A stretch of DNA of 64,000 nucleotides from Thermoproteota archaeon (lineage in GTDB: Archaea; Korarchaeota; Korarchaeia; Korarchaeales; Korarchaeaceae), in assembly GCA_027491415.1 (NCBI GenBank), contig JAOZFH010000018.1:1-64000 (forward strand). The letters are read 5' to 3'. The notes below the pieces were generated by a model, which ran no database searches, was not told where the DNA came from, and worked only from the letters and a program-made list of their open reading frames with translations. This document shows, piece after piece, positions 35,936-63,899 of this stretch; the first letter of the stretch is position 1, and the number at the start of each line of letters is the position of its first letter. Position numbers and translations under genes: made by a program.

Positions 35936-36691
35936 TTAAGGCGAGAGCGCTTCGACCGCGGCCTTCGCGAGCGCCCTCCGAGACCTGTCTACCTTGCGCG
36001 ATGAGAACCTCGCCCTCCAGACCCCCTCGAACAGCTCGTCGGTAATCGCTAGCCCGGCCGCCAGCCTGACCCCCCTGAACTCCGCCACCGCCATCAGGGC
36101 AGAGCACTCCATCTCAACCGCCAGGGCCCCGAGCAGAGAGTACCTTCGAACCTTTCCGACGGTCTCGCGAAACGGCGAGTCGGTGGTCCAGACCCCGCCC
36201 CTCAGCACCCTTACGCCCGACCCTCCGAGCGAGGATTCCAGGGCCTCGATCATCTCTGGGTCGGCGAGGGGGATCCTCTCAGGCGGCAGGTAGTGATAGC
36301 TCGTCCCCTCCTCCCTGATGGCCCACTCCGGCAGCACCACGTCCCCAATCCCAACATCGGGTGATATGGAGCCCGCCTCTCCCAGGACCAAGATCCTCTT
36401 CGCCCCACTTGCTGCCAGGACCTCCAGCAGCATTGCGGCCGCCGGCGCCCCGAAGTAGGCCAGCAGAAATGGGATGCCCTCGAAGTGGAACCTCTCCAAG
36501 CACCCGGCCGCCCGGCACCTCTCCGGGGTCGCCCCGAGGGTCTCGGCGGCGAGCCTAAAGATCCTGGGGGTCAGGGCGATGACGGCCGAACCTCCCCCCA
36601 GCCAGTCAACCCTCAGCTCGTATGGGTCTATTATAGGCTCGTCCCCCTCCGCCGGCAGGAAGTCGAGGACCGGCACACCCGTCGGATCCAA
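35936..36691 (-). CDS. Nucleoside phosphorylase (uridine phosphorylase-like)
   Basis: The 251-residue protein belongs to the PNP/UDP phosphorylase superfamily, splitting nucleosides with phosphate. GEAGSISPDVGIGDVVLPEWA and the substrate loop VEMECSALMAVAEFRGV match the uridine phosphorylase type. Start is TTG 36691 or GTG 36676; CCTTAATAG near 36707 fits either. A second family member is at 51910-52686 and is closer to classical Udp; this one lacks its GDPGR phosphate loop near the N-terminus and may use another substrate. Confidence 0.78.
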   Translation of the reverse strand: MDPTGVPVLDFLPAEGDEPIIDPYELRVDWLGGGSAVIALTPRIFRLAAETLGATPERCRAAGCLERFHFEGIPFLLAYFGAPAAAMLLEVLAASGAKRILVLGEAGSISPDVGIGDVVLPEWAIREEGTSYHYLPPERIPLADPEMIEALESSLGGSGVRVLRGGVWTTDSPFRETVGKVRRYSLLGALAVEMECSALMAVAEFRGVRLAAGLAITDELFEGVWRARFSSRKVDRSRRALAKAAVEALSP

Positions 36692-36719: not shown

Positions 36720-37616
36720 TCAGACGAGCCTTAGAATCTTGGCGAGGGCCGTCTTCAGGAGTCCCTTGAGGAACGCCCTGCCCATGTTAGAGACCGGGGC
36801 CGTAACCGTGGAGTACCTGGCGTCGTCGCTCAGCGTCACCGGCGCCCCCCTGACGAGCACCGCAGGGATTCCCTCGGACCCCTGCCCCATGAGGAGGGCG
36901 GCCGCTGCCGCGAGCTCGTCGGCCACGAGGTCCACGCCCCCGAACTTGGGCTTCCCATAGAGGTCCGGCTCTCCGAAAGACCTCCTCACGGGGTCGATTC
37001 CGGAGACACCCACGGCCCAGTCCACGGAGCCCATCCTGAACGGCGCGAAGTCCGTGTCCGAGATCACCACGCCGACCCTGGCCCCCGTCAGCTCCCTGAT
37101 GCGCTCCGCTATCTCCCGGGCCTCGGCGTCTGGGTCGGGGGGAGGGAGCGCGGCCACACCCTCCGGGCAGTTGGACCAGTCGATCCCTGCGTCCGTGATC
37201 ACGACTCCGGCCACCTCGGCCAGTATCGTCCCCCCCTCCTCCTCGACCATAGCCCTCGCCGCCTCCGGGTCCGGGGAGAACTCCTCCGGGAAGCCGGTCC
37301 CCCTGCTTGCCTCCGAGAAGGGAAGTATCAGCACGATCCTCCCGACGCTCCTGACGAGTTCCACGAGCCAGGCCGGCCTGCCCGCTATCCTGGCCAAGAT
37401 CCTGGACTTGAGGGAAGGCTTCACGTCAGAGATCCGCACCAAGTGGCCCTTCGCCTTGGAGACCACCTTGCTGGCTACCACCAGCACGTCGCCGTCACTG
37501 AGCTCGATTCCCATGGAATCGATCGCGGAGAGGATCACACTCGGGAGATCGTCTCCCTGCCTGAGTTCCGGGAGCCTCAACCCAATTAACTCAATCCTCC
37601 CACCCGGATTAGACAT
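36720..37616 (-). CDS. CofE-like ligase (coenzyme F420-0:gamma-glutamyl ligase family), copy 1
   Basis: The 298-residue protein matches the CofE family, which adds glutamates to F420-0. It has DGDVLVVASKVVSKAKG near residue 40, the metal/substrate block VVISDTDFAPFRMGSVDWAVG and DLVADELAAAAALLMGQG near the C-terminus. Canonical CofE usually reads SDT-x-GRPWR at the block; here it is altered, so another acceptor substrate is possible. ATG 37616 has GGAGG seven bases upstream. It is divergent from a membrane protein gene, the same arrangement as copy 2 at 61669-62583. No other F420 genes are in the window. Confidence 0.75.
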   Translation of the reverse strand: MSNPGGRIELIGLRLPELRQGDDLPSVILSAIDSMGIELSDGDVLVVASKVVSKAKGHLVRISDVKPSLKSRILARIAGRPAWLVELVRSVGRIVLILPFSEASRGTGFPEEFSPDPEAARAMVEEEGGTILAEVAGVVITDAGIDWSNCPEGVAALPPPDPDAEAREIAERIRELTGARVGVVISDTDFAPFRMGSVDWAVGVSGIDPVRRSFGEPDLYGKPKFGGVDLVADELAAAAALLMGQGSEGIPAVLVRGAPVTLSDDARYSTVTAPVSNMGRAFLKGLLKTALAKILRLV

Positions 37617-37749
37617 GAAATATCCTCCCCCCTGATCAGACGCCAAGACTATTAGCTGGTTTGCCTTCTACATACAAGCGTTCGTGGTGTTCGGCTCTCA
37701 CTATGAATGAACCTGACGAGTCGAAGGGGAGCGCGGGAGGAGGTTGAAA

Positions 37750-39162
37750 ATGTCCCCGAGGTCTCACGCTCTTTCCGCCTCCAGCACAAACATACCAGAG
37801 ATTGCGTCGCTTGTCTGGGTTATCTTGGCCACGATCGTGCTGCTGGAGAGCACGGGAGACTGGGTGCCGAAGCAGGTCGACCCACTGAGCTTGCTCGGCA
37901 GGGCCGTGGGGCTCCTGGCGGCTGGTATGGCCCTCATCATCCTGTATTTCATCGTGCTTCAGAGGCTGGAGGCCCTTCTCTGGAGGGACTGGAAGTACTT
38001 CACCTGGGGGCAGGCACTCCTGGCATACTTCCTGCTCATCGAACTCGTCGACTCGGCCTTCGTCCTCCCTGAGTACGTGCACGTGATGGAACTCCTCACG
38101 ATCCTAATCTCGGTGGGGATATGCTCCTGGTCACTCACGTCGATAATGGCCAGGCTGGCCTCCCTATTGACCGCCAAGAGGGGGGTCCCCAGGGTTCGAC
38201 CGACTTGGATATTCGCAGCGTGGCTAGCTGTGCTGATCTCAGTCACCGCGTGGTCGCTTCGATACGTCAGGCCGCTCCCACGGCCGAGGTATCTGGACCT
38301 TACCTTGGACATAGCGATCGCGGGCGTGCTCGCCGCGAACCTGTGGAGGCTCACCAAAGCCCTGGGGACGGTCACAGGGGCCGGCAGGTGGCTAGTCGAG
38401 GCCTCCATCACCTCGATGGCACTTGGCGCGGTGGCGGAACTCTACGTGATGTTCGAGGACCTGTTCCTCACCCCAAAGACGATGAACGTTTTCGGTTACA
38501 CTCTCACGGGAGCCATCGCTCTTGGGGTGGCCATATCCGGGTTCGGCTACTATCTGCTGGGAACCACGCCATATAGGGAGCCCCCCAACACGGAGGGGGA
38601 GGGTGGACCGGAGATTGACTGGAGGGAGTTTGGCCTGGACGTCGGAGGAGAGGGCGAGGTTATTCTGATGGAGTTCGAGCCTCTAACATCTCCCTCGGAG
38701 ATGATAGCTAGCCTAGTGTCGTGGCTTAGGGAGCTCGACATGAAGATCGTGGTGATCGCTAGGCGGGGTATCCCTCTGAGGGAGGTGGCGTCGGAGTCTG
38801 ACCTGACTATCCGGGTCAGCCCTGGCAGGATGGCCGCGCCTAAGGAGCTGTCTCCGGGCGAGCTGGAGGTGGGCCTGAGCCCATCCGTGATCCTGGGGAT
38901 CGTGAGCAGGTTGATCACGCCCGAGAGGAGGATGTCGCTCGTGGTGGAGAACGTCAGCGATATGACCACTCTCATCGGGTTGGACGGGGCCTACCGCCTG
39001 ATCAGGGCCCTCATAGACATGCTGATCCCGGAGAGGGCCGTGGTAGTGCTCGTAGTGAACCGAGGCGCCCACGGCGATCGGGAGATGAACCTGATGAGGG
39101 GTCTCGCCACTTGGATCATTAACGCCACGCGATACCCACCCGAGATCAGGAAGGTGGCCTGA
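37750..39162 (+). CDS. Multispanning membrane protein with DUF835-like C-terminal domain, copy 1
   Basis: The 470-residue protein has about seven to eight hydrophobic helices in residues 15-275 and a soluble C-terminal domain of about 170 residues. The latter includes LVVENVSDMTTLIGLDGAYR and a strand-rich VVVLVVNRGAHG, resembling the archaeal DUF835 domain, a degenerate RecA/KaiC-like fold. It is homologous along its length to the product of 60102-61505 (for example LTAKR, GRMAAPKE versus GRMGPPKQ, YRLIRALID versus YRLLRAMID). ATG 37750 follows GGAGG. A signalling role is plausible but unproven. Confidence 0.7.
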   Translation: MSPRSHALSASSTNIPEIASLVWVILATIVLLESTGDWVPKQVDPLSLLGRAVGLLAAGMALIILYFIVLQRLEALLWRDWKYFTWGQALLAYFLLIELVDSAFVLPEYVHVMELLTILISVGICSWSLTSIMARLASLLTAKRGVPRVRPTWIFAAWLAVLISVTAWSLRYVRPLPRPRYLDLTLDIAIAGVLAANLWRLTKALGTVTGAGRWLVEASITSMALGAVAELYVMFEDLFLTPKTMNVFGYTLTGAIALGVAISGFGYYLLGTTPYREPPNTEGEGGPEIDWREFGLDVGGEGEVILMEFEPLTSPSEMIASLVSWLRELDMKIVVIARRGIPLREVASESDLTIRVSPGRMAAPKELSPGELEVGLSPSVILGIVSRLITPERRMSLVVENVSDMTTLIGLDGAYRLIRALIDMLIPERAVVVLVVNRGAHGDREMNLMRGLATWIINATRYPPEIRKVA

Positions 39163-39198: not shown

Positions 39199-40524
39199 TC
39201 AGCCGGATGCGAGCCTCGTCGCGGCCCGGGAGGCCCGCTCCACCACCTCCCCCGCGTCCATCGTCATTATCCGTCTGGCCCTGACAATCACCCTCCCGTC
39301 GACTATCACCGTGTCCACGTCGTCGCCGGTGGCAGAGAAGACCAGCGCCGATACCGGGTCCCTCTGAGTGGAGAGGTGGGGCCTCCTGAGGTCCACCAGG
39401 ATTAGGTCGGCCCTCTTGCCGGCCTCCAGCGTTCCGATCTCATCGGCGAGTCCCAGCGCCCTCGCCCCGTTCACGGTCGCCATCCTGAGCACGTCCCAGG
39501 AGGTCAGCGCCCTTGGGTCGAGCCTACTCCCCCTCTGGAGGAGGGCCGCAAGGCGCATCTCTCTGAACATGTCGAGGGAGTCGTTGCTAGCCGGGCCGTC
39601 GGTCCCCAGGGCGACGTTCACCCCCTCCCTGAGCATGTCGGCCACCGGGGCGATGCCGGACGCCAGCTTTAGGTTGCTGGCCGGGCAGTGGACCACGCTC
39701 GCCCCCTTGGAGGCCAAGAGTGAGATCTCCTCCCGGTCGAGCCAGACCCCGTGGGCCGCCAGGACGTTGGGTCCCAGCACCCCGAGGGAGTCCAGGTAGG
39801 AGGGGGGCCCCTCCCCAGCTCTCTCCCTGAGCTCCTCAACCTCCCTCCTGGTCTCGGAGAGGTGTATGTGGAGCCTCAGACCCCTGGACCTGGCGAGCTC
39901 GGCGGAGGCGCGGAGGAGCTCCTCAGAGCACGTGTACGGGGCGTGCGGACCCACTGCCGCCCTTATTCTGCCGCCGCCAGCCATGTGCCAATCCTCTATG
40001 AACCTCTCGGCCTCCCTGAGCTCCTTAACGGTCTTGTCCGGATCCCTCTCCCAACCCGGGGCGTCTATCATCCCGTAGGAAAGGACTGCCCTCACCCCGG
40101 ACTCCAGAGCGGCCCTTGCCACCGAGTCCTCGTGGAAGTACATGTCCGAGAAGGTGGTTGTTCCCGAGAGGAGCATCTCCAAGATCCCCAGCCTCGCGCC
40201 GTCTAGCACCTCCTCTGGACCCATCTTGGCCTCTACCCTCCATATCTCCCTGAGCCACTCGTCCAGCGGCCTGTCGGAGGCGAGCCCCCTCAGCAGGGTC
40301 ATGGCCACGTGGGTGTGGGCGTTTACCAGGCCGGGTAAGGCGACCATGCCCCTCCCCTCGACGACCTCCTCTGCGGAGACGGGCGGCATGGATGACCTCC
40401 TGCCGATTGAGACAATCCTACCTCCCTCGACGGCCACGTACCCATCTCGGATCACGAGCCCTGGCGGGTCGACGGGGATCATTGCGGAGGCCAGCACCAG
40501 GAGGTCCACATTTAGCCTGGTCAT
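39199..40524 (-). CDS. Amidohydrolase, S-adenosylhomocysteine/5-methylthioadenosine deaminase-like
   Basis: The 441-residue metal-dependent hydrolase has NAHTHVAMTLLRG, the metal pair HIHLSETRREVEEL, AHGVWLD and GTDGPASNDSLDMFREM, the pattern of MtaD/SAH deaminases and the wider ATZ/TRZ group. It would deaminate adenosine-derived nucleosides such as SAH or MTA; in several archaea this replaces SAH hydrolase steps. ATG 40524 is about 30 bases from the shared promoter at 40553-40562. Confidence 0.82.
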   Translation of the reverse strand: MTRLNVDLLVLASAMIPVDPPGLVIRDGYVAVEGGRIVSIGRRSSMPPVSAEEVVEGRGMVALPGLVNAHTHVAMTLLRGLASDRPLDEWLREIWRVEAKMGPEEVLDGARLGILEMLLSGTTTFSDMYFHEDSVARAALESGVRAVLSYGMIDAPGWERDPDKTVKELREAERFIEDWHMAGGGRIRAAVGPHAPYTCSEELLRASAELARSRGLRLHIHLSETRREVEELRERAGEGPPSYLDSLGVLGPNVLAAHGVWLDREEISLLASKGASVVHCPASNLKLASGIAPVADMLREGVNVALGTDGPASNDSLDMFREMRLAALLQRGSRLDPRALTSWDVLRMATVNGARALGLADEIGTLEAGKRADLILVDLRRPHLSTQRDPVSALVFSATGDDVDTVIVDGRVIVRARRIMTMDAGEVVERASRAATRLASG

Positions 40525-40552
40525 CTTCAGCCGAGGCGGACCTCGGTCCGTC

Positions 40553-40562
40553 AAAACGTTTT
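40553..40562. promoter_or_regulatory. Shared palindromic TATA-like element for divergent genes
   Basis: AAAACGTTTT is a perfect ten-base palindrome. It lies 29-38 bases before ATG 40524 on the minus strand and 27-36 bases before ATG 40589 on the plus strand, so one AT-rich core could serve both divergent genes with leaderless transcripts. Extension by TAT on the plus-strand side makes GTTTTAT, the better TATA match. Confidence 0.5.
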
Positions 40563-40588
40563 ATCCACCGACCGACACGCGGAACGCG

Positions 40589-41818
40589 ATGAGGATAGAA
40601 CTCCCCTACGGGCGGGGCTTCGTCTCCGCCGAGATACCAGAGACCGCGGACGTGACCGTGCTGCATCCAAGGCCCCTCAAACCTGACGCCCAGGCAAGGG
40701 GGATCGTCTCCGAGGCGCTGGAGTCCGCGAGCCCGGGCCTGGAGGAGGAGCCCTCCGGCAGGGTCGTGATAGTGGTCGACGACCACACTAGGCCCTGCCC
40801 GACCGAGGTTATGCTGGACCACGTGCTGGGGAGGCTGAGGGTCCCCAGGAACCGGATAACGGTGATCTTCGCAACCGGCACCCACAGGCCCGTTTCCCCG
40901 GATGAGGCGAAGGAGATCCTGGGAAAGCACCACGGAACCGTCGAGGCGGTCAGCCACGACTGCAGGGGGGCCCACGTCTACCTCGGGGAGACCGGCAGGG
41001 GCACCCCCGTCGCGGTGGACGAGCTCTACAAGACCGCGGACTACCGCATCCTCCTGGGCGACGTCGAGCCGCACTACTTCGCCGGGTACGGCGGCGGTAG
41101 GAAGAGCGTACTCCCGGGAGTGAGCTCCTACGAGACCATACAGGCCAACCACAAGATGATGTTCCTCCCGGGAGCCGAGGTGGGCGTCCTAGACGGGAAC
41201 CCAGTCAGCGAGGACATGGAGGAGGCCGCCGACATGGCCGGGGCAGAGTTCACGCTCAACGTGGTGCAGAACGCCGAGCACGAGATAGTCTCTGCGCACG
41301 GCGGGCATCATAGGGACGTGCTCAGGGCCGGCGCGAGGGTCGTGGACCGAATGTACAAGGTGAGGTACGAGGGGGAGCCAGCGGACGTGGTGATCGTTGC
41401 TGCCAACGGATACCCGCACGACGTAGACCTTTACCAGGCCTACAAGGCTCTTCACATGGCCCTCAGGGTCGTAAAGCCCGGGGGGGCGGTGGTGTTCGTC
41501 GCGGAGTGCAGGGACGGGGCGGGGAATAGGAAGTTTGTCGAGTACATGAGGAGGTACTCCTCCTCAGACGAGGTCGAGGCTGCCCTCAAGCGGACGTTCG
41601 AGTTGGGGGGTCACAAGGCCTACTATCACCTTAGAGCCGTGGAGAGGAACAGGATCCTGTCCCTGACCTCCATGGACCCCGCCGAGGTGAGGGGGCTCTA
41701 CAAGATGGAGCCAATCTCCTCGCTCCAGGAGGGGGTCGACGCGGCCCTGAGGGGGCTCTCAAACCCGAGGGTCGTGGTGATGCCTGAGGGAACTACCACG
41801 ATCCCCGCGCCAACCTGA
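40589..41818 (+). CDS. LarA family nickel-dependent racemase/epimerase
   Basis: The 409-residue protein belongs to the lactate racemase LarA (DUF2088) family, which binds a nickel-pincer nucleotide covalently to a lysine. The core EPHYFAGYGGGRKSVLPGVS holds the attachment Lys and nickel-ligand His; catalytic His candidates are in AVSHDC near residue 110. The preceding VVDDHTRPCP is also conserved. No larB, larC or larE cofactor genes are in the window. Many archaeal homologues act on other hydroxy acids, so the substrate is open. Confidence 0.85.
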   Translation: MRIELPYGRGFVSAEIPETADVTVLHPRPLKPDAQARGIVSEALESASPGLEEEPSGRVVIVVDDHTRPCPTEVMLDHVLGRLRVPRNRITVIFATGTHRPVSPDEAKEILGKHHGTVEAVSHDCRGAHVYLGETGRGTPVAVDELYKTADYRILLGDVEPHYFAGYGGGRKSVLPGVSSYETIQANHKMMFLPGAEVGVLDGNPVSEDMEEAADMAGAEFTLNVVQNAEHEIVSAHGGHHRDVLRAGARVVDRMYKVRYEGEPADVVIVAANGYPHDVDLYQAYKALHMALRVVKPGGAVVFVAECRDGAGNRKFVEYMRRYSSSDEVEAALKRTFELGGHKAYYHLRAVERNRILSLTSMDPAEVRGLYKMEPISSLQEGVDAALRGLSNPRVVVMPEGTTTIPAPT

Positions 41819-54977: not shown

Positions 54978-55741
54978 GCGACCGCCGACGCAAGCTCAGC
55001 TCGACCGGCCCGCCTGGAGAGGAGCGGGAGCGCTCGGCTCGCCCCGCCCCGCCCCCTGGACCCTCCTCCAGCCTCGACTATCTCACCGTCCCTGATCCTC
55101 ACTATCCTCTCCATCCTCCTGGCCACGTCTACGTCGTGGGTCACGACCAAGAGGGTCGTGCCGAGCCTATCTTTCACATCCAGCAGGAGGCCCAGCACCT
55201 GCTCCCGCGTCTTGCTGTCCAGGGCCCCGGTGGGCTCGTCGGCGATTATCAGCTTCGGGGACTTGGCCAGCGCCATGGCGATGGCCACCCTCTGCTGCTG
55301 ACCCCCGCTCAGCTCGTGCGGCCTGTGGTTCGCGTGTCCCTCGAGGCCAACGAGTCTTAGGGTTCTGAGGGCCTCCTCCCTGTCTGTCCTGCCGAACCTC
55401 GCCTTCTGGGCCAACATGACGTTCTCCAGGGCCGTGAGCTCCGATATGAGGTTGTAGCTCTGGAAGATGAAGCTCACCCTCGACCTCCTGAACCTCGCCA
55501 GCTCGTCCTCGCTCAGGTAGACGAGGTCCACCCCGTCGACGTAGACGTGGCCGTAGGAGGGTCTGTCTAGGCCAGCAATGATGTTGAGGAGGGTCGTCTT
55601 GCCCGAGCCGCTCTTCCCCAGGATGGCGACGGACTCCCCCCTCTCGACCTCCAGGCTCACGCCCCTCAGCACGACCAGGTACCTGCTGCCGATCCTATAG
55701 GCCTTGTAGACGTCGACCAGCCTCACCATCGGCTCACTCAT
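54896..55741 (-). CDS. ABC transporter ATPase, MacB/LolD type
   Basis: The 281-residue ATPase has Walker A GKSGSGKTTLL, signature LSGGQQQRVAIAMAL and Walker B LIIADEPTGALDS, the MacB/LolD/FtsE pattern. The standard domain ends near residue 220 (RDGEIVEAGG). The final 60 residues are low-complexity and read antisense into the convergent SPASM gene by 82 bases, so they look like read-through after loss of an earlier stop. It overlaps the permease gene by eight bases. Confidence 0.88.
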   Translation of the reverse strand: MSEPMVRLVDVYKAYRIGSRYLVVLRGVSLEVERGESVAILGKSGSGKTTLLNIIAGLDRPSYGHVYVDGVDLVYLSEDELARFRRSRVSFIFQSYNLISELTALENVMLAQKARFGRTDREEALRTLRLVGLEGHANHRPHELSGGQQQRVAIAMALAKSPKLIIADEPTGALDSKTREQVLGLLLDVKDRLGTTLLVVTHDVDVARRMERIVRIRDGEIVEAGGGSRGRGGASRALPLLSRRAGRAELASAVAHATRTFSALALATSRQPGSGACGSPR

Positions 55742-56906
55742 GGGACAGCGCCTCCACGACCCTCATGCTCGCCGCCCTCCTCGCGGGTGGGATGGAGGCA
55801 ATCAGGCTGACCGCGAGCGATATGGCGAGTCCAGCCACCACGGACTGCGGGCCGAACTCAAGGGGGAGCGCGTAGCCCCTGACCGACAGGGCCGAGGACA
55901 CGAACTTGGCCGCCAGCACGCCCGCGGCAACGCCGATCGGCCCCCCGACCGCCGAGTACGCCAGCCCCTCGACGATGAATATACGGAGGATCTCGCCCCT
56001 CGTGTAGCCGAGGGCCTTCAGGATGCCGATCTCCCTGACCTTCTCGTTCACGCTCATCATGACCGAGTTCGTTATGCTCAGGCCCGCAATTAGCATGGAT
56101 ATGCTCCCTATGCCCAGCAGGACCGCGTCCAGTATCCCGAGTATCGAGCCGACGTTTTGCATCACCTGGTCGGTCTCCACTATCATGAGGTCGGGGTACC
56201 TCTTGACCAGGACCTCCCTGACGGCCTCGGCCGCCTCGGGGTCGTCGACCCTCACGAAGACCAGATTCACAACGCCCTCCTGACCATAGAACTCCTGGAC
56301 GGTCTCAAGCGGCAGGTAGATCGCCTGGTCCTGGAGGAATGTCCCGGTGGAGGACAGGATCCCCACGACCCTCACTGAGAGCCCCTCCTTGTCGTAGGGC
56401 CTCTTCAGGATCTCTATTCTGTCCCCGGGCTTGGCCGACAGCATCTTGGCTGCCGTGGCCCCCAACACGGCCTCCCTGTCGCCCGTCCAGTAGGACCCCT
56501 CGATGAGGCCCGGCAGCCCCTTCTCCAGCCCGCTGAGCGGCGTGCCTATCACGAGCAGGGCGGAGTCCCCCGTCTGCCTGGTGAACCCGACCTGGGTCAG
56601 CACGGGCGTCACGAGGCTGACGCCGTAGATCTCGTCGATGCCCTCGATCTCCCCCTCTGGGATGACCCCCATCGGGGATACGGATCCCAGGCCGAGCCCA
56701 CCGGAGGACGTCCCCCCGGAGGGCATGAGGATGAAGCCCATGTTCACCAGGCCCTCTAGGTTCTCCCTCACGGCCGCCCTCATCCCGTACCCTATGGCCA
56801 GGAGAGAGACCAGGGAGGCCACTCCAATCACTATCCCCAGCGCCGTGAGCACGGTCCGCAGGTTCCGGGGGTTGAGGTCCGCTAGGACTATCCTGTAGAG
56901 CGTCAC
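55734..56906 (-). CDS. ABC transporter permease, FtsX/MacB type
   Basis: The 390-residue permease has an N-terminal helix (TALGIVIGVASLVSLLAIGYG), a large extracellular domain and three C-terminal helices, the FtsX/MacB layout. MacB-type systems transmit force across the membrane rather than moving substrate through it, for example to release lipoproteins or peptides. It works with the ATPase downstream and overlaps a secreted protein gene upstream by four bases. Confidence 0.87.
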   Translation of the reverse strand: MTLYRIVLADLNPRNLRTVLTALGIVIGVASLVSLLAIGYGMRAAVRENLEGLVNMGFILMPSGGTSSGGLGLGSVSPMGVIPEGEIEGIDEIYGVSLVTPVLTQVGFTRQTGDSALLVIGTPLSGLEKGLPGLIEGSYWTGDREAVLGATAAKMLSAKPGDRIEILKRPYDKEGLSVRVVGILSSTGTFLQDQAIYLPLETVQEFYGQEGVVNLVFVRVDDPEAAEAVREVLVKRYPDLMIVETDQVMQNVGSILGILDAVLLGIGSISMLIAGLSITNSVMMSVNEKVREIGILKALGYTRGEILRIFIVEGLAYSAVGGPIGVAAGVLAAKFVSSALSVRGYALPLEFGPQSVVAGLAISLAVSLIASIPPARRAASMRVVEALSHE

Positions 56907-58891
56907 GCCCCCTCACCCCCAGCCGCGGCCGGAACCGGGGAGAATCCCTCGGGCTCGTAGTGCGGCCCTCCCCGCCTCCTCCTCACGGTCGCGAGGCCGA
57001 GGGCGCCCGCCGCCCCTGACCCCGCCAGGAGGACGATCCAGGGAGTTAGAGACCTCAGGCTCACCCCTCCGGAGACCTGGGAGGGAGGCTCCACCACCAC
57101 GACGGCGGTAGACTCCGCGTAGAAGGTCTGGGAGAGCCCGCCCCTGTAGGACACGCGGAAGATTAGCTCGTAAGTCCCGGGTGGAGTCGCGTCGCTCACC
57201 AGCAGTCGTATGCCGACGTCCTCTCTGTCCACGGTAGGGATTCTGGACACCACCGCCGGGGCGAGCTGCCTGAAGTACCCGCCGCCGTCAACGAGTTCCA
57301 CCACGACCCCCTCGGCGTCCCCCTCCCCGAGGTTCACGAGGTCCCCCCTGAGGGTTACCTCCCCCCCAGGGTGGGCTGTCGAGTCCTCGAGGATGAGGGC
57401 GAGCTCCGCCCGCCTCGCGACGGGGATCGCGATTCTGAGGGACTCCTCGTACCTGTTCCCGAGCTCGTCCCGGTACCTCAGCAGGAGGGGAACCTCTAGG
57501 AAGCCCGACTCCGCCGAGGAGTCGACGCCGACCTCGAAGCTCACCGTGACGTTCTCCCCGGCCTTCAGGTCCCCGAGGAAGATCCTGTTGGCCCCCCTGA
57601 GGACCCTTAGCGGAGACTCGCCGCCCTCTGCCTGCGAAGCCTGTGGAGCTCCCATGTACGGGATGCCGCCCGCCATCCCCATCAGGCCGGCCAGCGACGC
57701 CTGCTGCGCCTCCTCGCCAGCTGGGAGGAGGTCCAGCGACAGGCCGTAGGCGTCCCCAGGGCCCGCGTTGAGGAGGACGAGCGTCAGGCTGCCAGCGCCG
57801 CCCACCGGCAGGGGGTCAGGCGAGGTCAGCGCAGAGACCAGGTTGACGTGCGGCCTGTCTGGCTCTATCGATGTCGGCCTGCTGAGCGGGGTGGAGACGA
57901 CAACCTGAGCCACGGTTAGCTCCTCCACGTGGGTCCCGTCGACCCTCCTGTACGAGACCCTAACGGGGAGCTGGTAGATGCCCCTCGGGCAGCCCTCGCT
58001 CACCCTCACGCTGATGGTGAAGCGGGCCGAGCCCATCGGGGGTATGCTCTCGAAGAAGAACTCCCTCCTACCCTCGACGGCCACCCCAGCCGACTGTAGA
58101 GAAGAGCCGCCGGTCGTCAGCCCCCCGAGGTCGAACCCCGGAGAACCGCCGCCCGCATGGAAGCTGGCCCCGATTCCGACGGGCTCCACCTCCACCAGCA
58201 CGTCCCTGAGCGCCTCCCTGCCCAGGTTCCTGAGGGAGATGATCAGGGCGCCGGCGTCGCCCGCCCTGAGCACGGCCGGATACTGGGTCACCCCGAGGGA
58301 CAGGACCCCGCAGGGCCTGCCGACGACTACCTCGACCACGAACTCCTGCTCGACCTCCGGCCCGTAGGCCAGAACGGGTAGGGTCACCGCGGCGCTCCCG
58401 GTGGAGTCGAACGTGTCGTTGTTCACCCAGCTGATCGAGATCGGAGAGCTGTGGTCGATCTCTATGGTGCGGTAGGTGAGCGTCAGCGGGATCCGGTACA
58501 CCCCTGGGGTGGCGTTCCCCAAGACTTCCAAGAGGAACGTGGCCTCGAACGCCCCGCCCGGCAGGACGATTATCGGCGAGACGACGGCCCTCGGATCGTT
58601 CTCACCTCCCCCGCCGCGGAACGGGAGGCCCTCCAGGTGCGCCACGACAGAGATGGCCCCTATGGCCTGCTCCCCGTTTACGAAGGTGACTTTCAGAGGA
58701 ACCTGCCTGTCGCCCGGGTATACTCCGCACCCCCACTCCCAGCCCCACCTGACCGCGGCTATCTGGACATCTCCTGCCGCCTGCTGGGCCGCAGGCTGGG
58801 AGAGAGGGGTAAGCGAGATCACCAGAGCGGCCGTTAGCCAGATCGCGAGAGTCCTGAGTGTAGCACCCGCGCCCGATCGCTCCGCCGACAC
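56903..58891 (-). CDS. Secreted surface protein with CARDB/COG1361-like domains
   Basis: The 662-residue protein has an N-terminal signal (LAIWLTAALVISLTPLSQPA), several beta-sandwich repeats of the CARDB/COG1361 type (pattern L-N-G-D-A-x-G-V-V-V-E-L) and a C-terminal transmembrane helix (WIVLLAGSGAAGALGLA) with a basic stop-transfer. It is probably exposed at the cell surface. Archaeal proteins like this often sit beside MacB-type ABC genes, as here, and may be the periplasmic adaptor. Confidence 0.8.
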   Translation of the reverse strand: MSAERSGAGATLRTLAIWLTAALVISLTPLSQPAAQQAAGDVQIAAVRWGWEWGCGVYPGDRQVPLKVTFVNGEQAIGAISVVAHLEGLPFRGGGGENDPRAVVSPIIVLPGGAFEATFLLEVLGNATPGVYRIPLTLTYRTIEIDHSSPISISWVNNDTFDSTGSAAVTLPVLAYGPEVEQEFVVEVVVGRPCGVLSLGVTQYPAVLRAGDAGALIISLRNLGREALRDVLVEVEPVGIGASFHAGGGSPGFDLGGLTTGGSSLQSAGVAVEGRREFFFESIPPMGSARFTISVRVSEGCPRGIYQLPVRVSYRRVDGTHVEELTVAQVVVSTPLSRPTSIEPDRPHVNLVSALTSPDPLPVGGAGSLTLVLLNAGPGDAYGLSLDLLPAGEEAQQASLAGLMGMAGGIPYMGAPQASQAEGGESPLRVLRGANRIFLGDLKAGENVTVSFEVGVDSSAESGFLEVPLLLRYRDELGNRYEESLRIAIPVARRAELALILEDSTAHPGGEVTLRGDLVNLGEGDAEGVVVELVDGGGYFRQLAPAVVSRIPTVDREDVGIRLLVSDATPPGTYELIFRVSYRGGLSQTFYAESTAVVVVEPPSQVSGGVSLRSLTPWIVLLAGSGAAGALGLATVRRRRGGPHYEPEGFSPVPAAAGGEGA

Positions 58892-58897
58892 CGCTGA

Positions 58898-59401
58898 TCA
58901 CCTCTCGCCCCTCACCGTCACCTTCCCGACCCCGCGGCAGACGGACAGGACTAGGACCTTCGGGAGGCCCTCGGGGATCACGACCTCTCCGCAGCGATAG
59001 ATTCCCCTCACCCTGGACCTGAAGGTCTCCTCGTCGACGTCGTCCGCGAACTCGAGCCTCTTGATCCGGATCAGGACCAGCTCCCTGTCCGCCTCAAGCA
59101 GGTCCTTCCTCGTGAGGGTGAGCTCGTCTATGTCCTCTATGACGCGCCCAAGCCCCTCCAAGAAGCCCCTCATGAATTCGGCCGAAATGCCGATGGCCCC
59201 TCCGGGGAGGGGCGGCTCTCGGTCGTGGGGAAACATCGAGAGAAAGAGCTCCATGGACTGGTTGAGGAGCGTGCCGACATTTACCCCCATCCTCCTGGCC
59301 AGCCGACTCAGCCGCCTGTAGAGGGAGCGATCCACGCCCCGCACGGTGATCTGCCCGAACCTCCTCTCCTGGCGGCTCTCCCCGTTTCCCGCGCTGTGCA
59401 T
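58898..59401 (-). CDS. Ribbon-helix-helix-like regulator with C-terminal extension
   Basis: The 167-residue protein opens with RFGQITVRGVDRSLYRRLSR and RRMGVNVGTLLNQSMELFLS, a strand-helix-helix pattern of the RHH/CopG family. The C-terminal 100 residues are acidic then beta-rich and may be a sensor. ATG 59401 is preferred because the promoter and a tandem repeat at 59412-59443 lie directly upstream; an open frame extends further but is low-complexity. It precedes the surface protein and ABC genes and may control them. Confidence 0.65.
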   Translation of the reverse strand: MHSAGNGESRQERRFGQITVRGVDRSLYRRLSRLARRMGVNVGTLLNQSMELFLSMFPHDREPPLPGGAIGISAEFMRGFLEGLGRVIEDIDELTLTRKDLLEADRELVLIRIKRLEFADDVDEETFRSRVRGIYRCGEVVIPEGLPKVLVLSVCRGVGKVTVRGER

Positions 59402-59411
59402 TTGTGATCGG

Positions 59412-59443
59412 ATGTAGTGCAAATGTAATGCGTATATAAATGA
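59412..59443 (-). promoter_or_regulatory. Promoter with tandem-repeat operator for the RHH-like gene
   Basis: ATGTAGTGCAA (59412-59422) and ATGTAATGCGT (59423-59433) form an 11-base direct repeat. On the minus strand they lie just downstream of ATTTATATACG (complement of 59433-59443), which is the TATA element for the gene starting at 59401. RHH proteins bind tandem sites, so self-regulation is likely. Confidence 0.5.
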
Positions 59444-59598
59444 CGCAGCCGGGCCACCTGGTCGAGCTGGTGCGAAGGGGGACGAGCGGCGCTGAGGCCG
59501 ACGCGATCGACCTCGCCGGGGCCACGACCTCTCGCCCGCGGAGCGTCTGGCGGAGGGGACTCTCGACCTCCTGCTAGATCTGGGAGGTCCTCGCAACC

Positions 59599-59632: not shown

Positions 59633-59771
59633 GGGGCCGTGGCCCAGCCAGGTGGCCTCCCGATGATAAGGCCGAGGTCGCCCTGGAAAGGTCAGGGCGG
59701 CGGGCTCCAGTCGGTGGAGCACTGAGGGGGAGACCCGTAGGACGTGGGTTCAAATCCCACCGGCCCCACCA
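59633..59771 (+). tRNA. tRNA-Trp(CCA) with two probable introns and encoded CCA
   Basis: The acceptor arms are GGGGCCG (59633-59639) and CGGCCCC (59761-59767) with discriminator A and an encoded CCA. D-stem arms are GCCC (59642-59645) and GGGC (59695-59698). The anticodon stem pairs GCGGG (59700-59704) with CCCGT (59734-59738). The T-arm is GTGGG-TTCAAAT-CCCAC. The anticodon loop is C-T-CCA-G-A, giving Trp, if a 22-base intron (59711-59732) is removed at the canonical 37/38 site. About 39 further bases (59653-59691 or shifted by one) must be removed from the D-loop. Both introns can form hairpins. Arg was considered but the loop fits Trp best. Confidence 0.75.
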
Positions 59772-60101: not shown

Positions 60102-61505
60102 CTAGGTCAGGTCGATTATGTTCGTGGCGAGGCTCCTCAGCAGGTTGACCAGCTTCGGGTCGTGGGCCTCCGGCGGCAGGACTATCACCACCACGGAATC
60201 GTGAGCGGCCAGCTGGTCGATCATCGCCCTGAGGAGCCTGTAGGTGCTCTCCCCACCCAGGAGAACCAGCAGGCCGGTGGTGTCCTCGACGATCACAGCC
60301 AGCCTGTCTCCCTCCTCCCTGGCCCTGGATATCATCCCCAGGATTACGGCCGGATCCGCCCCTATCTCGAACTCCCCCACCCCGACCTGCTTAGGCGGTC
60401 CCATCCTGCCGGCGGAGACGTAGAGAGCGAGCGAGGCGTGCTTGGCGATCTTGGGGGCCGCGGGGGATGACCTCCTCCCTATCAGCACGACCCTGTACCC
60501 CTCCGACTCCAGGTGGGAGGCCAGGTCCTCGAGCGCATCGGCGTAGCCCCTCATTGTGGAGACCTCGAACAGGATGACCCTCCCGGAGAACGTCCCCAGG
60601 CGGCTCCACTCGTCCGGACGCCTGGACCTGATTGGCCCCACCTCTGGCAGGCCCAAGGGCCGGGTAACTTCGGGGAGCGGAGGCCTGAGAGCCGTCGTGC
60701 CGTACAGGTAGTAGGCGACCAGCGCGAGCGCCAACCCCAGGGCCACGGCGGCGCTCCCGCTCACCCCGACGATTCTCACGACGTGGGGGATGATCAGCGT
60801 GTCGTCCAGCGTGGTGAAGACGCTGGCGGCGGCCCCCAGGTACAGCGCGCCGGAGCCGCACCTCAGCAGCCACCTGGCCGGGTAGCCGGACCTCCTCGAC
60901 TCCAGCAGGAGCCTCGTGCCCAGGACGGCGTCGAACGCGAGGTTGATTATGTCGAACGGGACCTCCCCCAGCTTGGGTTCGGGCATCGTCGGCCACTCCC
61001 ACGGCCTCTGGGCGATAACCACTGCAGTCAGGAATGCGAGCCAGCCGACGAGCACCAGCAGGGGGTCCACCCGCGGGGTCGCCCTCTTGGCCGTTAGCCC
61101 ACTCGTTAGGTCGGTCAGGTAGCTCGCGAGGCTCCAGCCAGCCACGAGCGTTGCCAGCACCGTGCACCCGAGCTTGTAGAAGTGCACGATGGGCGGAACC
61201 TCGAAGACCGTCTCTACTACGTCCAGCCAGCCGAACATCACCATCACGCTCAGGCCCGCCAGGACTCCCCTCCAGTGCCCCGACAGGAGCGCCTCGACCT
61301 TCGACTTCCAGGCCGTGTAGAGGAGCGAAGTGAAGGCCATTGCCCCTAGGAGGCCGATAAACCTCAGGAGGAACTCAGCCTGGGTGAGGGGGCGGAGGCT
61401 CCACTGGCGAGATGTGGCGGCGACGACGATGGCCCCTAAGGCGATCCAGATGGCAGCGAGGGCCTCCTGAACTGAGAGCCGCAGGCCCCTACCCTCCTCG
61501 TTCAA
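60102..61505 (-). CDS. Multispanning membrane protein with DUF835-like C-terminal domain, copy 2
   Basis: The 467-residue paralogue of the protein at 37750-39162 has the same plan: seven to eight helices, then a soluble domain with VIVEDTTGLLVLLGGESTYR, YRLLRAMIDQ and VIVLPPEAHDPKLVNLLRSL, core motifs of the DUF835-like region. LTAKRATPRVDP in a loop matches LTAKRGVPRVRP in the other copy. TTG 61505 is the start, with CACTTTTATGG about 45 bases upstream. It is divergent from a CofE-like gene, as is the first copy. Confidence 0.7.
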   Translation of the reverse strand: MNEEGRGLRLSVQEALAAIWIALGAIVVAATSRQWSLRPLTQAEFLLRFIGLLGAMAFTSLLYTAWKSKVEALLSGHWRGVLAGLSVMVMFGWLDVVETVFEVPPIVHFYKLGCTVLATLVAGWSLASYLTDLTSGLTAKRATPRVDPLLVLVGWLAFLTAVVIAQRPWEWPTMPEPKLGEVPFDIINLAFDAVLGTRLLLESRRSGYPARWLLRCGSGALYLGAAASVFTTLDDTLIIPHVVRIVGVSGSAAVALGLALALVAYYLYGTTALRPPLPEVTRPLGLPEVGPIRSRRPDEWSRLGTFSGRVILFEVSTMRGYADALEDLASHLESEGYRVVLIGRRSSPAAPKIAKHASLALYVSAGRMGPPKQVGVGEFEIGADPAVILGMISRAREEGDRLAVIVEDTTGLLVLLGGESTYRLLRAMIDQLAAHDSVVVIVLPPEAHDPKLVNLLRSLATNIIDLT

Positions 61506-61668
61506 CGCCTAAACACCCGTCTACGGTTTCTTCGTGGGCACCCGAGGCCCCCCCATAAAAGTGATAGGTCGGTTAGGCTTTCGAACCCGGCCGCCGCTAC
61601 GTTCGCCCCTCCTGTCCGGAAAAAACGCCGCGGTCAGATTAAATTCCGAGCCGAGAGTGCGTCGCCTA

Positions 61669-62583
61669 ATGAGATCTCCCTCCAAGGAGGATTCTCACCC
61701 CGCGGATGTCAGGATGATCGGGCTCAGGCTCCCTCGGGTTTTGGAGGGAGATGACCTGGCCGGGCTCATCGTCCAGGCCGCAGGTGAGGTTGGAGAGAGG
61801 CTCGAGGACGGAGACGTGCTCGTGGTGGCGAGCAAGGTGGTCTCTCGCGCCAAGGGATACGTCGTGAAGCCAGGGGAGGTCAAGCCGAGTATCAGGAGCA
61901 AGCTGTTGGCGTGGCTGACAGGCCGAGAGCCCTGGGAGGTCGAGCTGATCAGGGAGAGGGGAAGCCTCGCGTTCATCATGCCCTTCTCTAAGGCCACCAG
62001 GGGGACGGGCTTCCCGGAGAGGTTCGCGGTTGACCCGGAAGAAGCCAGGAAGATGGTGGAGTCCGCCGGGGATGTCATGCTCATGAGAGCCAGGGGGCTG
62101 ACCCTCGTCGACGCTGGGATGGACTACTCCAACTGCCCCGAGGGCCACGTCTGCCTGCTGCCGACAGATCCGGATGAGGAGGCCCGAGAGATAGCCGACC
62201 GCATAAGGGAACTCACGGGCGCCAGGGTGGGGGTCGTGATCTCTGACACGGAGTTTCAGCCCATGAAGATCGGCTCCATCGACGTGGCGGTGGGGGTCGC
62301 CAACGTCTTTCCGATCCGCAGGAGGTTCGGGGCCAGAGACTACTTTGGAAGGCCGAAGTTCGGGGGAGACGACTCCGTGGCCGACGAGCTCGCGGCCGCG
62401 GCGGCCCTGCTCATGGGGCAGGCCGACGAGGGCATACCCGTCGTGCTGTTCAAGGGGTTAGATGTTGAGATGGACGAAGAGGCCAGCTCCGAGGATTGGA
62501 TAGCCCCCAGCGGGAAGGTGACCCGGGTCATTATCGTAGGGGCCCTAAAGACGCTGATCGCAAAGCTCCTGAGGCTGGCTTAG
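61669..62583 (+). CDS. CofE-like ligase (coenzyme F420-0:gamma-glutamyl ligase family), copy 2
   Basis: The 304-residue protein is a close paralogue of the product of 36720-37616. It has DGDVLVVASKVVSRAKG, YSNCPEGHVC, VVISDTEFQPMKIGSIDVAVG (in part) and DSVADELAAAAALLMGQAD. ATG 61669 is about 30 bases after CAGATTAAATTCC, supporting a leaderless start; an open frame continues upstream without a good start. The altered GRPWR region, shared with copy 1, suggests a substrate other than canonical F420-0. It may still ligate glutamate to a cofactor. Confidence 0.75.
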   Translation: MRSPSKEDSHPADVRMIGLRLPRVLEGDDLAGLIVQAAGEVGERLEDGDVLVVASKVVSRAKGYVVKPGEVKPSIRSKLLAWLTGREPWEVELIRERGSLAFIMPFSKATRGTGFPERFAVDPEEARKMVESAGDVMLMRARGLTLVDAGMDYSNCPEGHVCLLPTDPDEEAREIADRIRELTGARVGVVISDTEFQPMKIGSIDVAVGVANVFPIRRRFGARDYFGRPKFGGDDSVADELAAAAALLMGQADEGIPVVLFKGLDVEMDEEASSEDWIAPSGKVTRVIIVGALKTLIAKLLRLA

Positions 62584-62632: not shown

Positions 62633-63574
62633 ATGATGGCGACCGAGCGCTGCTTGTACTGCGAGAGACCCGGGGAGCACTTCGTCCCGAACCTCGGCGG
62701 CAGGGTCTGCACCGAGCACTTCCTGAGGTACTTCAGGAAGAGGGTGAGGAGGGTCCTCAGGAGGGTGGGCAGGGGCAAGAGGGTGCTCGTCGGCGTCTCC
62801 GGCGGGAAGGACTCTGTGGCAGCCCTCTACGCGCTTGCGGAGATGGCCGACGAGTTCTCCCTGGAGATAGGGGCCCTAATGATAGATGTGGGCGTGCCAG
62901 GCAACGAGGCGTGCGTCGAGGTGTTCGGGAGGGCGGTCTCGGAAGTCGGGGCCAGGAGGCACCTCGTCTCGCTGAGGGACGACCTCGGCATCAGGGTGCC
63001 GGACGACCCCTCATTCGCCTGCGTGGTCTGCGGGACCGTTACGAGGTACGTCCTTAACAGGGTGGCCCACGAGGCGGGCTACGACTACGTCGCGACGGGA
63101 CACAACCTGGACGACATGGCCTACTTCGCCCTCAACAACATGATCACCCACAACATCGCTTACCTTCGATCCCTCGACTCGGTCACGCCGCCCATCCCCG
63201 AGCTCAAGCTGGTCGGGAGGGTGAGGCCCCTCTTCTGGCTCAGCGACGCCGACGCCGAGACGTACGTGAGGATCATCGGAGCCCCGAGGTGCTCCACTAA
63301 GTGCCCACACGAGGGCCAGGACAAGCAGGCTCTCGTAAAGCCCCTCCTCAACGACCTCCGCTCGCTCTGGCCCACCAGCATCGTGAACTTCGTCGACTCG
63401 ATGAGGGAGCTGGCCAGAATGGCTGGCCTGCTGGGGGAGAAGATGGAGGGATTCAGAGAGTGCGTCAGGTGCGGCTACCCGAGCAGAACGGAGGTGTGCT
63501 CGTTCTGCAGGCTGGTAGAGAAGCTGGGGGGCAGGGTCCCGAGCAGGCTGGTCGGTGGCGAGTCAAGGGGTTAA
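62633..63574 (+). CDS. ttuA: TtuA/Ncs6-type tRNA 2-thiolation ATPase
   Basis: This PP-loop ATP pyrophosphatase (about 313 residues) thiolates tRNA at U54 or U34. The PP-loop is VSGGKDSVAALYAL. N-terminal zinc finger CLYCERPGEHF with VCTEHF, the catalytic Cys pair SFACVVCGTVTRY and APRCSTKCPHEGQ, and C-terminal zinc finger CVRCGYPSRTEVCSFC are all present. The sulfur donor is usually a ubiquitin-like protein ending in Gly-Gly; none is next to it. CAGTTAATTAG near 62608 gives the promoter. Confidence 0.9.
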   Translation: MMATERCLYCERPGEHFVPNLGGRVCTEHFLRYFRKRVRRVLRRVGRGKRVLVGVSGGKDSVAALYALAEMADEFSLEIGALMIDVGVPGNEACVEVFGRAVSEVGARRHLVSLRDDLGIRVPDDPSFACVVCGTVTRYVLNRVAHEAGYDYVATGHNLDDMAYFALNNMITHNIAYLRSLDSVTPPIPELKLVGRVRPLFWLSDADAETYVRIIGAPRCSTKCPHEGQDKQALVKPLLNDLRSLWPTSIVNFVDSMRELARMAGLLGEKMEGFRECVRCGYPSRTEVCSFCRLVEKLGGRVPSRLVGGESRG

Positions 63575-63605
63575 TTTTATACCACCATCGGACGCGGGTC
63601 CGGAA

Positions 63606-63899
63606 ATGCGTGAGGTCGAGTGTCCCATCTGCGGGGCCAGGATCCCGGTTGGGTCCCCCGACTTTCAGGGCGAGGTGGAGTGCCCTGACTGCGGAGCGCG
63701 GCTCTTTGTCGTTATTGAAGGGGGCTCTGTTCGGCTGATTGAACTCCGGGAGGAGGAACTCGAGTTTGAGGAGGAAGAGCTCGAGCTTTCGGAACTTGAG
63801 GCCGAGGTAGAGGGACTGGAGCTTGAGGATGACCTTGAGCCGGAGGATGTCGACCTGGAGGACCTCGAGGAGCTGGATGAAGGGTTGGGGGGCTTCTGA
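63606..63899 (+). CDS. LysW-like zinc-ribbon protein with long acidic tail
   Basis: The 97-residue protein starts with two CPxCG knuckles (Cys 6, 9, 26 and 29), the pattern of LysW, the carrier protein of lysine and arginine biosynthesis. LysW normally has about 55 residues and ends in EDWGE-like residues whose last Glu is modified. Here an acidic, leucine-patterned tail of about 50 residues follows and the end is DEGLGGF, so LysW function is doubtful. GTTAATTTTATACC near 63572 gives a leaderless start at ATG 63606. It is 31 bases after ttuA. Confidence 0.7.
   Translation: MREVECPICGARIPVGSPDFQGEVECPDCGARLFVVIEGGSVRLIELREEELEFEEEELELSELEAEVEGLELEDDLEPEDVDLEDLEELDEGLGGF

Follow-up and report, generated by a model that had tools for sequence, protein, structure and literature searches.

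The stretch of DNA analysed here (the window, 64,000 nucleotides) is part of an 80.9-kb contig from a genome, G000, that is 96% complete and whose close relatives are Korarchaeia; among the Korarchaeia from marine hydrothermal vents are MAGs with the INS_M prefix (PMC10667645). Comparisons covered 24 genomes of the host family, 29 of the phylum (Korarchaeia) and 394 in the whole sample; G001 is of the same genus as G000 and close to it, G004 belongs to another genus, and G133 is a distant archaeon. The window holds two gene pairs, each composed of a CofE-like ligase and a membrane protein encoded head to head, and each ligase has a close neighbour on its own strand:

35936..36691, minus strand: nucleoside phosphorylase family gene (PF01048, 5e-34), 28-bp gap to ligase 1; order identical in G001
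36720..37616, minus strand: ligase copy 1, PKFGG-type CofE-like gamma-glutamyl ligase, 298 aa, reading frame open upstream to 37646 (PF01996, E=2.6e-58)
37617..37743: divergent intergenic region of pair 1, 127 bp, near-identical in G001
37744..39162, plus strand: membrane protein copy 1, ATG at 37750, eight predicted helices followed by a putative degenerate RecA/KaiC-like domain (DUF835/DUF7504-type) at the C-terminus
60102..61505, minus strand: membrane protein copy 2 (DUF7504, E=6.4e-6; DUF835, E=0.0046)
61506..61668: divergent intergenic region of pair 2, 163 bp
61669..62583, plus strand: ligase copy 2, PKFGG-type CofE-like gamma-glutamyl ligase, 304 aa, ATG at 61669 (PF01996, E=8.5e-57)
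62633..63574, plus strand: TtuA-like PP-loop enzyme gene (NF049949, 9.5e-47), 49-bp gap to ligase 2

The gap of pair 1 becomes 133 bp if counted from ATG to ATG, and the reading frame of ligase 2 listed from 61534 is over-long. Apart from such choices of start codon, the sequence-only reading, a first interpretation made without database searches, had placed the first pair correctly, and the second pair that it reported at 60102-62583 has the same families in the same arrangement, as it said. Its family names are also right: the ligases match PF01996, and the membrane protein has DUF835/DUF7504-type similarity. The nucleoside phosphorylase gene is possibly co-transcribed with ligase 1, and the TtuA-like gene possibly with ligase 2.

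Both ligases belong to a subclade of the CofE family (PF01996), here called PKFGG type or long type, whose members form a clade with support of 100/99. G000 and G001 have two each, and G004, G005, G019, G023 and G133 one each; the type is thus present in 6 of the 29 genomes of the phylum and in 7 of the 394 sampled, with G133 as the only distant one. All long-type ligases carry D(A/S)GxDxSN and (K/R)PKFGG and have, before the DAG motif, about 30 residues more than CofE; this extra stretch adjoins F92, a residue of the F420 chromophore pocket (Af-CofE numbering, as below). D109, N112, D150 and T151 are retained in all six tabulated long-type rows; we take these to be the residues of the catalytic metal/phosphate site, where the aspartates bind the metals (2PHN structure). 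In the same rows, N105 is always replaced by D, E188 by F and T190 by G. G153-R154, present in 18 of 18 F420-type rows, are replaced or deleted in every long-type row, and R234 is not kept in the window copies, in a part where the alignment is less certain. Crystal structures show that G153-C155, R234 and F92 surround the F420 chromophore (PMC10861534). Since the metal-site residues are kept and the F420-contact residues are lost, the site of catalysis seems to have been preserved and the F420 pocket remodelled.

The sequence-only reading had held that the CofE fold blocks are kept and that a GRPWR-like segment is altered. The alignment bears out the altered segment in both ligases, and the fold blocks are seen in the PF01996 match, in the overall block order and in structural comparison: the template-free model of copy 1 (mean pLDDT 58, low confidence) has 2PHN as its top Foldseek match (E=8e-24). 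The window ligases therefore resemble CofE proper (F420-0:L-glutamate ligase; PF01996/TIGR01916; Af-CofE 2PHN, 7ULD) in fold, profile, block order and the D109/N112/D150/T151 set, but differ from it in the pocket insert of about 30 residues, in DAG for NAG, in PKFGG for the E-x-T segment, in the loss of G153-R154 (common to the long type) and of R234 (in the window copies), and in being encoded by a genome without the F420 pathway. On the NCBI F420_cofE equivalog model they nevertheless score 197.8 and 204.1 against a cut-off of 180.65. Because both pass, genomes unable to make F420 would be annotated as F420-capable.

The sequence-only reading had noticed no other F420 genes in the window, and our searches of the genome show no CofC, CofD or CofH. 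CofD was found in 0 of 24 host-family genomes and not in G133, by a search that was positive in 18 other sampled genomes. CofC had no match in G000, G001 or G004, and weak matches in G008 and G017 only; CofH gave no family match over the cut-off, and in G000, G001 and G004 not even a weaker one. With these pathway genes missing and the F420-contact positions replaced, it is very unlikely that the window ligases act on F420-0, which we rejected as a candidate substrate. The proposal that the ligase acts on something other than F420-0 is very probably right, given the absent pathway, the replaced contact positions and the kept metal positions, and the long-type enzyme probably adds glutamate to some molecule other than F420. 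There is a precedent for a CofE-family protein working on an acceptor other than F420: Chlamydia, which has no further cof genes, encodes the CofE homologue FolC2 (CT611), and E. coli folC is complemented by it (PMC1971073). The likeness is to the description in that paper, not to the CT611 sequence, and whereas CT611 is encoded with folate genes, the window ligases are not near pterin genes.

The other CofE-like genes of the genome give further context. G000 has four PF01996 genes. The one on contig C29 adjoins an MptE-like gene, followed by a divergent dihydropteroate synthase (DHPS) gene (L036:7049-9931). CofE-like genes of this type have MptE and DHPS neighbours in nine Korarchaeia, namely G000, G001, G003, G004, G005, G007, G008, G010 and G011 (loci L036, L038, L041 and L019-L028; the tally leaves out G019 and G023). 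This clade is likely to be a pterin or folate gamma-glutamyl ligase in genomes without F420 genes, a good candidate because of its gene context, as with CT611 in Chlamydia. The gene on contig C60 overlaps the end of a DUF359 GTP-dependent dephospho-CoA kinase gene (L037:6650-8028). Neither the C29 nor the C60 gene adjoins a DUF835-like gene, and our gene-neighbourhood comparison found no MptE or DHPS gene beside the long-type ligases. These contexts suggest that the CofE family does non-F420 work here and that the PKFGG type has a further role; for a pterin acceptor, the MptE/DHPS-linked ligase is already a candidate in G000.

The membrane protein has about 470 residues. The sequence-only reading had described 7-8 helices and a cytosolic domain, and the model of copy 1 (mean pLDDT 53, low confidence) accordingly has eight predicted helices followed by an alpha/beta domain, the helix count agreeing with the hydropathy of the membrane paralogues. 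DUF835 scores 17.2 bits in both copies (E~0.0045) against a Pfam cut-off of 33.1, and DUF7504 reaches 27.2 bits against a cut-off of 27 in copy 2 only (6.4e-6). There is no Walker A motif in the membrane protein; two KaiC proteins used as controls have one. Foldseek searches with the low-confidence model gave weak matches, none with E below 0.001, many of which were RecA, Rad51 and KaiC; hhalign profile comparison with the KaiC of the window itself gave nothing, and no relative with a solved structure was found by sequence. DUF835 is listed as an inactivated KaiC (iKaiC) in archaeal signal transduction (PMC5847659). The window proteins resemble such DUF835/DUF7504/DUF7090 archaeal proteins in their C-terminal domain and in having no Walker A motif, but they score at or under the Pfam cut-offs, and they have an eight-helix membrane domain fused to the C-terminal domain and a ligase gene next door. 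G000 has nine DUF835-like matches. Its membrane paralogue L104 adjoins KaiC ATPase and V4R protein genes, and L091 adjoins Roadblock/LC7, V4R and B3/4 genes. This company of KaiC, V4R or Roadblock genes suggests, by context, a signalling, regulatory or receptor role for the membrane protein. None of the four pair proteins has a PADLOC match, which is evidence against a defence function.

The two pairs have a common history. The ligase copies are 57% identical over 290 residues and are sisters in two maximum-likelihood trees (support 100/93 and 98/84), with the G004 ligase outside. The membrane copies, far from being unrelated, are homologous over their full length (32% identical over 463 aa) and are likewise sisters in a maximum-likelihood tree (support 97/96). 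The flanks of the two pairs have nothing else closely related in common, only distant phosphorylase paralogues. As both components are sister paralogues, the simplest history is that one pair was duplicated as a unit; an independent origin of the two pairs is thereby rejected, and with it the argument of the sequence-only reading from two independent pairs. Both pairs are conserved in G001. Because the two genomes are closely related, the gene order that they have in common is weak evidence. Ka/Ks against G001 is 0.07 for ligase 1, 0.30 for membrane protein 1, 0.26 for ligase 2 and 0.17 for membrane protein 2, and all four genes are under purifying selection.

In G004, the long-type ligase gene is 8 bp away from, and tail to tail with, a gene for a membrane protein that shares the architecture of the window proteins. 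Its BLAST similarity to the window copies (~30%) is significant in the C-terminal domain only, it groups with another G000 paralogue in the tree, and its grouping with the window copies is disfavoured by the AU test (p=0.03), on long branches. The G004 protein was considered as an orthologue of the window proteins because of a score of 574 bits, obtained with the protein itself inside the profile, and was rejected on the tree and that test. From these comparisons, it is probably not orthologous, and the orientation differs as well, so that the pairing may have two origins or owe something to chance; in G004, the two families would either have come together independently a second time or be neighbours by chance. 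Such a membrane protein is absent from four of the seven genomes with a long-type ligase (G005, G019, G023 and G133). The expectation of pairing in related genomes thus held for G001, with both pairs, and, through another member of the family, for G004, but not for these four.

Based on these findings, we propose that the long-type enzyme is a GTP- and metal-dependent non-F420 gamma-glutamyl ligase to which the membrane protein is coupled as an anchor or a receptor-like regulator, a reading that we think somewhat better than even. We start from the computed family membership, metal positions, chromophore positions, missing F420 pathway, pair duplication and purifying selection, and infer from them the ligase activity, a non-F420 acceptor and the functional coupling with the membrane protein. 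GTP and two divalent metals would bind at the retained site of the CofE-fold ligase. The carboxylate of the acceptor, held in the rebuilt pocket, would be phosphorylated to an acyl-phosphate, as the conserved residues suggest; L-glutamate would then attack the acyl-phosphate and be joined to a small non-F420 acceptor, by the chemistry worked out for CofE. The membrane protein may anchor the ligase or gate it via its putatively nucleotide-dead KaiC-like domain, a role suggested by gene context, and could in this way link the activity or the product of the ligase with signals from the membrane or the environment. A bolder form of the proposal is a receptor-controlled system, in which the CofE-derived enzyme would add glutamate to a cofactor or signal molecule that is neither F420 nor the MptE/DHPS-linked pterin, under the control of the eight-helix protein with the dead KaiC-like domain; we regard this form as speculative and rather unlikely.

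The functional link between ligase and membrane protein is plausible, the balance lying slightly in its favour. The unit envisaged by the sequence-only reading gains a little from the keeping of the pair in G001, and also from the G004 ligase lying beside the same membrane family, and loses from the G004 partner being a different member placed tail to tail and from the four genomes without a partner. The adjacency could instead be an accident around a real non-F420 ligase, the product of one chance juxtaposition, a block duplication and inheritance, which we hold to be a serious but lesser possibility. It would fit the paralogy of the two pairs, the ligases without a partner in G005, G019, G023 and G133, the apparently non-orthologous partner in G004, the abundance of DUF835-like genes in these genomes (nine and seven matches) and the fact that a TtuA-like neighbour recurs too (copy 2 of G000/G001, and G005). 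However, a rough expectation (with the nine matches of G000) gives each ligase of G000 or G004 a chance of about 1% of neighbouring a DUF835-like gene. The head-to-head order has also been retained in both copies, although their other neighbours are not the same and the ligases are now 57% and the membrane proteins 32% identical.

The remaining alternatives concern the acceptor. The ligase might glutamylate the membrane protein itself, gamma-glutamylation of the protein serving as a regulatory mark, and not a small molecule. The adjacency of the genes and an insert that alters the acceptor pocket would suit this scheme, but the membrane proteins have no conserved C-terminus and the ligase exists in genomes without the membrane protein, which make it improbable; to our knowledge, no CofE-family member modifies a protein. 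Less probable still, and hardly to be expected, is that the ligases are true CofE enzymes in cells that import F420-0 or shorter-tailed F420 and then extend it: their passing of the equivalog cut-off would be explained, but not the lost chromophore-contact residues, the pocket insert or a genome with no CofC, CofD or CofH. On our preferred reading of a non-F420 ligase, the PKFGG subclade is a clear candidate set for a new glutamylated metabolite in archaea, and the three-way split of the family into CofE proper, the PKFGG type and the MptE/DHPS-linked type makes acceptor switching on one fold testable.

Several further features lie near the pairs. TtuA-like genes adjoin long-type ligases in two lineages, at copy 2 in G000/G001 and in G005, with 31% identity between them; in G005, the gene is divergent from the ligase (L034:8715-9599). 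Downstream of ligase 2 and its TtuA-like gene, a small protein with a LysW-like zinc ribbon and a very acidic tail is encoded at 63555-63899 and is conserved in G001. A lactate racemase LarA-like gene (40142-41818) lies two genes from membrane copy 1. About 4.5 kb at 55034-59534, with genes for an ABC transporter, a permease, a NEW3-domain protein and a small unassigned protein, is cleanly missing in G001, where the equivalent gap lies between a radical SAM gene and membrane copy 2. Adjoining this insertion is a tRNA gene at 59633-59768 (Rfam, 45.5 bits), missed by ARAGORN, which probably bears an intron, since it spans 136 bp.
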